This document shows positions 5,593 through 41,411 of a stretch of 64,000 nucleotides of DNA, in pieces (the stretch's first letter is position 1; each line of letters starts with the position of its first letter). This DNA is from Bacteroidales bacterium (GTDB lineage: Bacteria > Bacteroidota > Bacteroidia > Bacteroidales > G3-4614). The DNA lies in assembly GCA_017559955.1 (NCBI GenBank), contig JAFYPQ010000030.1, positions 1 to 64,000 on the forward strand, written 5' to 3'. The notes under the pieces were generated by a model. That model saw nothing but the letters and a program-made list of their open reading frames with translations. It had not been told where the DNA came from and ran no database searches. Both the position numbers and the translations under genes were made by a program.

Positions 5593-7479
5593 ATGAGCAA
5601 AACAACAGAAAACATATTACAAACCATATACTCTCCAGAGGATTTGAAAAAGGTAAATATCAACGATTTACCTCAATTATGTAAAGAGATAAGAGAGTAT
5701 ATGCTTAATATTCTTTCAAAGCATCCCGGGCACTTAGCTTCGAGTTTGGGGGCTGTTGAATTAACCGTTGCTATTCACTATGTTTTTAATACGCCTTATG
5801 ATAGAGTTGTTTGGGATGTAGGACATCAAGCATACGTTCATAAAATTTTAACAGAACGCAAAACTCAATTTGAGACAATTCGTCAATTCAACGGATTAAG
5901 TGGATTCCCCACCCCTTCGGAGAGTGAATATGACACATTTACTGCAGGACACGCTTCAAATTCTATCTCTGCAGCATTAGGAATGTCTGTTGCGGCAAAC
6001 TTAAACAACGAAGAGCGTAAAGTCGTTGCTGTAATTGGAGATGCTGCTATTTCGGGAGGTTTGGCGTTTGAAGGATTAAACAATGCTTCGTCAAGCCCCA
6101 ATGACCTTCTTATTATATTAAACGATAACGATATGGCTATTGACCATAACGTTGGTGCTTTAAACAAATACTTGGTAAAAATCACCACATCTCCAAGATA
6201 TAACAGGTTTAGATATAATGCCTACTCATTTTTACGCAAACACAAAATTATTAGAGATAATCACAAAGGCATTTTTACCAGATTTACCAATAGCATAAAA
6301 TCATTAATAAGCCGTCAACAAAACATTTTTGAAGGTTTAAATATCAGATACTTCGGCCCTATTGACGGGCATGACACCAAGAGCATTATTAAGGTTCTTT
6401 CTGATATAAAAAAAATAAAAGGACCAAAACTTCTGCATCTAAAAACCATAAAAGGCAAAGGTTATCTGCCTGCTGAACAAGATGTAACTACATGGCATGC
6501 CCCGGGCAAATTTAATGTCGATACAGGAGAAAGAGTTGTAGGCAGCAATCCTATGGTTCGCTATCAAGATGTTTTTGGGGAAACATTAGTTGAGTTAGCT
6601 GAAGAAGATGAGAAAATCGTAGGAATAACTCCAGCAATGCCCTCCGGTTGTTCAATGAATTTAATGAGGGATAAATTCCCCAATAGATTTTTTGATGTGG
6701 GTATAGCAGAAGAACATGCCGTTACATTTTCGGGAGGTCTTGCAAAAGAGGGTTTAAAGCCATTTTGCAATATATATTCATCTTTTTTACAAAGGGCTTT
6801 TGATGAAATTATTCACGACGTGGCAATTCAAAATCTTCCTGTTGTTTTTTGTATAGATCGTGCAGGAATTGTTGGAGAAGATGGTGTTACTCATCACGGA
6901 AGTTTAGATATTGCATATCTGCGTTGCATACCAAATATGATAATTTCGGCACCAATGAATGAACACTATTTAAGGCATTTAATGTTTACCGCTGCAAATA
7001 ACCAAACCTCTCCTTTCTCTATAAGATACCCAAGAGGCAATGGTAATATTGCAGAGTGGAAATGCGAACCAAAAGTTTTAGAAATTGGCAAAGGAAGGAA
7101 AATATGCGACGGCAAAAATATTGCCATACTAAGCATTGGAACCATTGGAAATGAAGCTTTAAAAGCTATTGAACAAGCTAAAAATGATGGTATTGATGTT
7201 GCTTTGTACGATATGATTTTTGTCAAGCCAATTGATATGGATATTTTAACCTCCGTAGCAAAAGAATACGACAAAGTAATAACAATTGAGGACGGAACCA
7301 TAAACGGAGGCTTTGGCAGTGCCGTTTCTGAAATATTTTCTAAAAACGGCTATAATGGTAAAATAAAAATGATAGGAATACCCGACAAGTTTATTACCCA
7401 TGGTAAACCTTCGGAACTATATAATATATGCAATATGGATAGCAATGGTATATACGATGCCATTGTTGGCAAGTGGTAA
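5593..7479 (+). CDS. dxs: 1-deoxy-D-xylulose-5-phosphate synthase
   Basis: Thiamine-diphosphate enzyme of 628 residues that joins pyruvate and glyceraldehyde 3-phosphate in the first step of the MEP isoprenoid pathway. The N-terminal half has the transketolase-like TPP site: [10 protein letters not shown] near 43-52, V-W-D-V-G-H-Q-A-Y near 75-83 and the G-D-A-x-(28)-N type Mg/TPP motif with G-D-A-A-I-S-G-G near 149. The pyrimidine-binding domain includes [10 protein letters not shown] near 370, and [15 protein letters not shown] near 420. Length equals the family norm. trkA follows after 20 bp. DXS uses TPP, and thiamine-related genes lie at 33-34 kb. Confidence 0.97.
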
Positions 7480-40103: not shown

Positions 40104-40889
40104 TTAAGGAATACAAACAATCCTAAATCCTATTATAGAAGCTGTAGCTGAGGGATGTTGAAAATTACGAGACACAACCCTGCAACTTGAGGAATAATCT
40201 CTCCAACAGCCCCCTCTTATTACTTTTGATTCTCCTCTAAAATTATTATCTTCATTATTAATATACTTATAAGACCTATAAGTATCACTACACCACTCAT
40301 AAAGATTACCACTCATATCATACACCCCCAATTCATTAGGTTTTTTACTTCCAACAATATGAACCTTTTTTTGGCTATTTGAATTATACCAAGCAACTTT
40401 ATCTATATTATCATCACCACTATATCTACATATATTACTTTTTATACCACCACGAGCCGCATATTCCCACTGTTCTTCAGTTGGTAATTGATAATTCTTT
40501 CCTGTCAACAAACTTAACTTATTACAAAAAGAGTTTGCATCATACCAACTGACATTATTTATAGGCAAATCACCTTCTTCATTATTAAGATCATTTCCTT
40601 CCATTATTATATTCCATTGTTTTTGAGTTACCTCAAAGCATCCTATATAATAAGAATTTATTGAGAGTTCTGTTGCAGGACTTTCATCTTTATATCCTTC
40701 TACTTTAGAGTCATTTCCAATTTTAAACAAACCTCCCTCCACATATATCATTTTTAAATTAATACCGTTTACATTCTCAATATAATTTTGAACTTTAATA
40801 AAAGAGGTACGTTTATTGATATTTTTCTTTGCATTTATTACCAATACTATTGACATTATCATAAGGATAAAAAACAAAACATTTCTCAT
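40104..40889 (-). CDS. SUMF/FGE-like domain protein, probably non-catalytic
   Basis: Membrane-anchored or secreted protein of 261 residues with an N-terminal hydrophobic segment (about 4-19). The rest is one formylglycine-generating-enzyme-sulfatase (SUMF) domain: G-G-L-F-K-I-G-N near 53, C-F-E-V-T-Q-K-Q-W near 83, P-I-N-N-V-S-W-Y-D-A-N-S-F-C near 109, Q-L-P-T-E-E-Q-W-E-Y-A-A-R-G-G near 139, G-V-Y-D-M-S-G-N-L-Y-E-W and the closing R-G-G-C-W and G-F-R-I-V-C. Aligned with human SUMF1, the residue matching Cys336 is Asp and only the Cys341 equivalent remains, so formylglycine synthesis is unlikely. The fold also serves in lipoproteins and gliding proteins (GldJ/GldK type). The gene is AT-rich and stands alone. 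Confidence 0.85.
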   Translation of the reverse strand: MRNVLFFILMIMSIVLVINAKKNINKRTSFIKVQNYIENVNGINLKMIYVEGGLFKIGNDSKVEGYKDESPATELSINSYYIGCFEVTQKQWNIIMEGNDLNNEEGDLPINNVSWYDANSFCNKLSLLTGKNYQLPTEEQWEYAARGGIKSNICRYSGDDNIDKVAWYNSNSQKKVHIVGSKKPNELGVYDMSGNLYEWCSDTYRSYKYINNEDNNFRGESKVIRGGCWRDYSSSCRVVSRNFQHPSATASIIGFRIVCIP

Positions 40890-40933: not shown

Positions 40934-41059
40934 AAAAAAGGTGCATTCCTGCATCTCGTACCATACAGATAGAGACACAGAAACACACCTCCATAAATGG
41001 GGTGCATTCGCTTGTATTTTCTCTATGTGTATTCTGAAAGGTTGGTCGTTTTCGATTAC
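40934..41059. repeat. Unknown element, copy A (126 bp)
   Basis: It begins AAAAAAGGTGCATTCCT and ends TTGGTCGTTTTCGATTAC, and shares both ends and an internal ACAGAAACACACC (40977-40989) with copy B. GGTGCATTC recurs inside at 41001-41009. A small hairpin CACC-T-CCA-TAAA-TGG-GGTG is possible at about 40986-41005. Read on the minus strand the element would end GGAATGCACC followed by six T's, like the 3' end of a small RNA. No transposase or target-site duplication is seen. Confidence 0.55.
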
Positions 41060-41140
41060 GAGAAATCAGCGATGCTTAATATCAAAGTTTTATATTATAT
41101 TCTGATGTTTTTTAGTTTTTATATTTCTTATTATAAAATA

Positions 41141-41295
41141 AAAAAAGGTGCATTCCTACGCTCGTTCTAAGTAACCGAGGTACGACCAAGCACCCAAACA
41201 CATATAAAACAAGCTACAGAAATACACCCCATATAGGAGCATACTCGTACTGCTTGTTCATCAGTGTTTCCTCTATTTTGGTCGTTTTCGGCTAC
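41141..41295. repeat. Unknown element, copy B (155 bp)
   Basis: It begins with the same 17 bases as copy A and ends TTGGTCGTTTTCGGCTAC (two differences in 18). The internal ACAGAAATACACC (41217-41229) has one difference from copy A. The region between the first and second shared blocks is longer than in A. Starts of the two copies are 207 bp apart, in the same orientation. Confidence 0.55.
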
Positions 41296-41375
41296 TAATG
41301 AACAATAACGATAGTATTTATTGCAAAAATAATATTAATTTTTTATTTATTCATTTTACAGATAATTTTTATTAC

Positions 41376-41411
41376 AAAAAAAATACGAGCCACACTTTGT
41401 ATGGCTCGTAT
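41376..41411 (-). terminator. Terminator of the phosphohexomutase gene
   Basis: ATACGAGCCA and TGGCTCGTAT (41383-41392, 41402-41411) form a perfect 10-bp stem. On the minus strand it is followed by seven or eight T's. Confidence 0.85.

Follow-up and report, generated by a model that had tools for sequence, protein, structure and literature searches.

The window, a stretch of 64,000 nucleotides from a Bacteroidales bacterium (contig JAFYPQ010000030.1), contains a tandem pair of related elements on the minus strand, in the gap between a phosphoglucomutase gene and the gene of a SUMF1-like protein. The features of the locus are given below from high to low coordinates, with bit scores from a covariance model built from copy 2 (R1) and from the refined model (R3).

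41383-41411, minus strand: terminator hairpin of the upstream phosphoglucomutase gene, an inverted repeat followed by T8 on the minus strand, which separates that gene from the leader
41324-41331, minus strand: promoter-like -7 box of copy 2, TATTTTTG (Bacteroidota TAnnTTTG), invariant in five of five orthologues
41142-41306, minus strand: copy 2, the intact family member and leader RNA core (R3 138.3 bits, E 3.4e-30 in the window; R1 177.7 bits)
41135-41146, minus strand: U-run of copy 2, a T-run typical of family members
40934-41085, minus strand: copy 1, a shortened relative (R1 20.4 bits only; fold z-score -5.4), kept in five species
40104-40889, minus strand: downstream gene, encoding a signal-peptide-like protein with a SUMF1-like (FGE-sulfatase) domain (Pfam FGE-sulfatase, E 5e-48)

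The first-pass annotation had described two copies in the same direction, 207 bp apart, and this duplication is real: both copies, at 40934-41059 and 41141-41295, have the same orientation. At the places given there, the left ends are identical over 17 bases, the inner block of 13 bases carries one change (ACAGAAACACACC and ACAGAAATACACC) and the right ends of 18 bases carry two. The global alignment score of the copies was 77 compared with 13.7 +/- 4.8 (maximum 34) for 2000 dinucleotide shuffles, a comparison that somewhat overstates the score because the match itself was used to set the copy ends. The minus strand is indeed the sense one, and both copies finish with GGAATGCACC followed by a T-run. 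While the positions were right, the bounds were too tight. On the minus strand the copy 2 unit runs from 41306 to 41142, and copy 1 reaches about 41085.

When copies were sought in related genomes, the pair was found at the same locus in five of the eight same-genus genomes (G000, G001, G003, G005 and G006), where the whole tandem is kept at 75-81% identity; it is absent from the orthologous intergenic regions of G002 and G007. The SUMF1-like gene is the same neighbour of the pair in G001, G003 and G006 and is the candidate regulated gene. BLAST of the pair across the genus returned nothing convincing outside the syntenic locus, and a third pattern match in the genome (C30:54883) was a single 14-base match without the remainder of the element.

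The wider family was revealed by covariance models only, not by BLAST. Computation with these models established that copy 2 is a member of an uncatalogued structured RNA family of about 165 nt, present in many Bacteroidota and in some other bacteria. R1 matched 56 of 393 sampled Bacteroidales genomes, mostly at E values of 1e-6 to 1e-17 and with up to five copies each, and R3 matched 53 of 395 genomes sampled across the phylum. All eight genomes of the genus carry R3 matches, with 5-13 copies each; the genome of the window has eight, of which copy 2 is the best. Named hosts confirmed by R3 include Bacteroides fluxus, Parabacteroides goldsteinii, Dysgonomonas, Odoribacter lunatus, Alistipes, Flavobacterium, Aquimarina and Spirosoma. 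Outside the phylum, R3 matched Desulfonema magnum and uncultured Lentisphaeria, Verrucomicrobia, Kiritimatiellae and Ignavibacteria. As a specificity control, most pattern matches in unrelated bacteria (Arthrobacter, Mesorhizobium, Roseiflexus, Clostridia) failed the covariance model. In Desulfonema magnum, two Acido-Lenti-1 RNAs (RF01687; L216:5407-5452 and 6576-6621) lie near the family member.

Among mobile DNA, the phage collection gave no match and the plasmid collection one weak partial match. The latter is a partial BLAST match to copy 2 in a Parabacteroides distasonis entry classed as a 250-kb plasmid (L385:2501-2568), with an acyltransferase gene downstream on the same strand. The core pattern occurred in 15 viral contigs; only four of these, from IMG/VR (L370, L378, L380 and L383), carry a full-length member, and a fifth has a weak, cut-off match. 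Phages or misassigned bacterial contigs may thus spread the family.

The strands of copy 2 that take part in folding are as follows.

41297-41305, minus strand: P1 5' strand, TTGTTCATT, pairs with 41254-41262 (covariation)
41289-41295, minus strand: P2 5' strand, GTAGCCG, pairs with 41171-41177 (double changes in six of six pairs, 99.2% of cells paired)
41278-41285, minus strand: P3 5' strand, ACGACCAA, pairs with 41182-41189 (99.2% paired, double changes in six of eight pairs)
41264-41269, minus strand: P4 5' strand, AAACAC, pairs with 41196-41201 (97.6% paired, double changes in six of six pairs)
41254-41262, minus strand: P1 3' strand, GATGAACAA, which overlaps the P5 5' strand at 41252-41258 (covariation)
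41236-41244, minus strand: H5, the 5' strand of the apical hairpin (H5:H3 covariation, p about 1e-11)
41217-41230, minus strand: H3, whose partner is either H5 (apical hairpin) or T (terminator-like helix); both pairings covary
41179-41194, minus strand: conserved core GGTGC-TTGGTC-GTACC, which holds the P3 3' strand (41182-41189) and a local hairpin, P6 (P6 covariation)
41171-41177, minus strand: P2 3' strand, CGGTTAC (covariation count)
41147-41160, minus strand: strand T, CGTAGGAATGCACC, the 3' arm of the terminator-like helix (H3:T covariation)

In the alignment of the Bacteroidales R1 loci (A6), the RNA forms a rod of helices P2, P3, P4 and P5 with the apical hairpin H5:H3. What the first-pass annotation called the right end of the element is the 5' arm of these long helices. 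RNAalifold reported compensatory double changes in 36 of 38 pairs; a direct count gave 97% of cells paired and double changes in 35 of 37 pairs. The covariation score was 0.764 compared with 0.197 for shuffled alignments and at most 0.105 when slid. Since A6 had been fitted to a model with the rod structure, an alignment-free test was also run, and each 5' arm found a better partner in the 3' arm of the same member than in those of other members. Both the count and the alignment-free test were repeated on other loci (A8), where the covariation score was 0.829 compared with 0.206 shuffled; the core pattern had served to find most of these loci, and the core columns (P3b and P6) are therefore conditioned on it. 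That the family is a structured RNA is near certain.

The strand of the RNA follows from the mismatches. Read in the minus-strand sense, G-U pairs outnumber A-C mismatches by 221 to 10 in A6 and by 207 to 25 in A8, so the folded molecule is RNA of the minus strand. The minus-strand fold of copy 2 has a z-score of -4.7 against shuffles. A plus-strand RNA was rejected on its weaker folding, with z-scores of -2.4 and -3.0 compared with -5.4 and -4.7 for the minus strand.

The possibility was considered that the element acts as DNA, as an integron attC-type site, as the arms of an invertible promoter or as a small nonautonomous transposon. In favour of this, the element is multi-copy and palindromic and often lies beside accessory genes. 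However, the 221:10 asymmetry marks one RNA strand, the orientation to the gene is constant, and the genus combines synteny with highly diverged paralogues; attC boxes (RYYYAAC and GTTRRRY) were found at both ends in none of 64 members. A DNA element is consequently scarcely credible. The integron attC site was rejected on the missing end boxes, and the MITE or nonautonomous transposon on the lack of near-identical dispersed copies, those present being syntenic and highly diverged. Of the two identities first proposed, small RNA or mobile element, the RNA nature held and the mobile element did not.

A type I toxin mRNA was likewise rejected. The short hydrophobic ORF MLMNKCYKYAPIWGVFLLLVLMHLGAWSYLGYIG (window 41160-41260; orthologues L035, L036 and L037) is intact only in G001, G005 and G006, broken in G000 and G003, and absent elsewhere in the family, in agreement with the earlier remark that the small ORF is not conserved. 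No ORF is shared among 60 loci taken from the R1 matches in Bacteroidales. In copy 2 of the three near-identical genomes, the MLMNKCYKYAPIWGVFLLLVLMHLGAWSYLGYIG frame resembles a tiny membrane protein.

The genes next to the family members indicate how it may act. The downstream gene lies on the same strand in 104 of the 107 members with a called gene, at a median gap of 62 nt, which exceeds the two-thirds seen for the upstream gene (p 6e-15); genes were called with a simple ORF script rather than a trained gene finder. At one locus (L149) two divergent copies each face their own gene. A run of five or more T follows the element in 91% of members, compared with 16% in a control stretch further downstream, and the TAnnTTTG box occurs 60-110 nt upstream of the model start in 19 of 64 members, compared with 3 of 64 for its reverse complement.

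A promoter-like box and a U-run of its own would also suit a trans-acting small RNA that lies before genes by chance. Its 5-13 paralogues per genome recall FopS of Bacteroides (PMC11697453), and the loop of copy 1 is complementary to copy 2. Nevertheless, free small RNAs have no need of the same-strand gene found at 104 of 107 loci, and the loop arms vary along with their own partners without keeping a common seed. A trans-acting RNA is for these reasons unlikely; the small-RNA reading of the first-pass annotation was right as to RNA, and a free-standing small RNA is improbable. The family is very probably cis-acting.

By a simple heuristic, 45 of 79 downstream genes have a signal-peptide-like start, compared with 5 of 51 upstream genes. 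The downstream genes are diverse and include those of BspA-type leucine-rich-repeat, OmpA, PKD and BACON proteins, response regulators and small HTH proteins. Apart from the many secreted proteins and one small HTH family that recurs, the regulon is not functionally coherent, and this mixture gives no clue to a ligand; coherence is common among riboswitch regulons, though it does not strictly define them. The recurrent HTH protein starts MIHIG or MVHIG directly after the U-run. Proteins of this type have 66-80 aa (L129, L130, L135, L136, L158, L159, L160, L182, L184, L188, L246, L248, L333 and L364); in Pfam, three typical members had no match and a fourth, L248, weakly matched HTH_26. At some loci the M[IV]HIG gene is followed by a gene for a secreted protein. 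Eight genus copies, mostly before BspA-type surface genes (L334, L350, L352, L353, L356, L357, L368 and L369), have about 50 bp of upstream DNA in common and also a GTTATGCGTGAGGTT stretch after the U-run. Promoter, leader and gene thus seem to duplicate together in these copies.

Besides the rod, the alignments contain pairings that cannot coexist with all of it. P1, H3:T and P6 each covary and each is incompatible with parts of the rod. For P1, pairing was better with the own partner in 98% of members (p about 1e-11), with double compensation in G003. H5:H3 covaries with p 8e-12 (p 1e-11 on held-out loci) and H3:T with p 3e-10 (p 5e-8 on held-out loci), whereas the control pairings H5:T and P1b:T were null for covariation. 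P6 (GGUGC-UUGGUC-GUACC), which would exclude P3, is 96.9% paired, with 17 double-change cells compared with 2.6 in shuffles.

Rod versus terminator is how an attenuator is laid out, but the energetics speak against it. In 98% of members the fold of lowest computed energy is the rod; with P3 broken, the folds lose about 10 kcal/mol and show H3:T in only 20%. The terminator fold thus has to arise kinetically, through an effector or as a pseudoknot with the rod (P2/P3). The terminator-like H3:T helix would also enclose about 55-70 nt in its loop, a length unusual in intrinsic terminators.

It is also conceivable that the U-run is incidental and that the fold governs translation or RNA stability. 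In members of the HTH subfamily 0-12 nt separate the end of the U-run from the start codon, and in some members there is extra pairing past it. An additional complementary pair outside the element, with GATGGCA to the 5' and TGCCATC beyond the U-run, was seen in L226, L222, L187, L225, L236, L167 and L173, so that the transcript past the U-run may belong to the fold. A post-transcriptional leader is nonetheless highly improbable, given that the U-run of at least 5 is so strongly enriched (91% vs. 16% nearby) and directly follows the covarying H3:T helix.

The reading that is considered probable is a cis-acting two-state leader, a candidate attenuator or riboswitch whose alternative ends are the rod and the terminator. 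Copy 2 would be transcribed on the minus strand from the promoter just upstream, ahead of the same-strand gene for the SUMF1-like surface protein. The nascent RNA could form the 5' hairpin P1 and would then choose between two ends. In the first, P2, P3, P4, P5 and H5:H3 would form the rod, strand T would stay unpaired and RNA polymerase would read on, presumably the ON state. In the second, the H3:T helix beside the U-run would end transcription before the gene. A putative effector, either a small molecule or a protein, would presumably decide between the two ends, as happens in riboswitches and attenuators.

A rival reading, in which the effector is a protein and the rod is recognised by a processive-antitermination or RNA-binding factor, much as in EAR, put and LoaP/UpxY-type systems, is a minor possibility. 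It would suit the mixed regulon, in which surface genes and small HTH regulators are frequent, as well as the conserved unpaired patches within the rod, AAA / ACC and GGGUGC. EAR and put RNAs are not known to have a U-run at their own end, and this was counted against a protein effector.

Copy 1 had no R3 match at E<=1. It lacks P4b-P6-P3b-P2b and retains P1, the P2a/P3a loop, H3 and T. Two of its features bear on a possible role.

40940-40992, minus strand: predicted terminator hairpin of copy 1, arms 40978-40992 and 40940-40951, U-run 40934-40939
41042-41059, minus strand: loop of copy 1, GTAATCGAAAACGACCAA, complementary to the copy 2 3' arm TTGGTCGTACCTCGGTTAC (predicted duplex energy)

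The strong, terminator-like hairpin is the minimum-energy fold of copy 1 and, having lost the 3' arm of the rod, copy 1 would be able to form the terminator only. The predicted duplex between its conserved loop and copy 2 has an energy of -19.1 to -21.7 kcal/mol in five of five species, compared with no better than -11.5 kcal/mol for the best partner of the loop inside copy 1. In three of the five species, which are near-identical, the loop pairs with the 3' arm of copy 2 better than the 5' arm of copy 2 itself does. These predicted energies suggest the hypothesis that copy 1 is a duplicate whose loop may pair with the exposed 3' arm of copy 2 and so bias its folding; we infer this role from the complementarity.

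No match overlapping the element was found in Rfam 15 at the gathering score, either for the window or for 20 further members, and low-threshold scans gave chance-level matches only. Literature searches returned no description of the family, and a string search with the core motif gave nothing relevant. MasB / BTnc201 (RF04177), a narrowly conserved Bacteroides sRNA of about 100 nt (PMC10994844), resembles copy 2 in ending in a GC hairpin and then a T-run, but the Rfam match between them is at chance level (16.3 bits, E 4; gathering score 105). Like FopS and GibS, the family consists of multi-copy Bacteroidota RNAs linked to surface genes. However, FopS RNAs are 65-70 nt long and act in trans through a shared 5' seed (PMC11697453), whereas family members are about 165 nt long and cis-oriented with covarying arms. 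The survey of Fremin and Bhatt (2021; PMC8040213) gives 3161 computational structured-RNA candidates of human microbiomes, of which 15 precede HTH_XRE genes and some come from Bacteroidetes; these candidates may include a fragment of the family. The closest parallel is with transcription-attenuating riboswitches and leaders, which also have a structured 5' leader, the next gene on the same strand and, as proposed here, two exclusive folds, both supported by covariation and one of them against a U-run. The family differs from the known ones in having no Rfam match, a mixed surface-gene regulon and a long-range terminator helix.

A broader proposal is possible, if rather doubtful. The family would be a new riboswitch class, widespread in Bacteroidota and represented also in Desulfobacterota, Lentisphaerota, Verrucomicrobiota, Kiritimatiellota and Ignavibacteria. 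It would respond to a general signal by changing between its two covarying folds, and in each genome it would control many genes for cell-surface and small HTH proteins; in the window, a truncated copy would modulate the intact one through loop pairing.

Few cis-regulatory RNA classes are known that centre on Bacteroidota, a dominant gut phylum. In the genus of the window, this family recurs 5-13 times per 2-Mb genome, often ahead of genes for surface or secreted proteins. With a sharply specific covariance model, a defined pair of folds and named hosts, the family can be tested directly as a candidate orphan riboswitch or attenuator, and it would make a so far hidden regulon easy to map.
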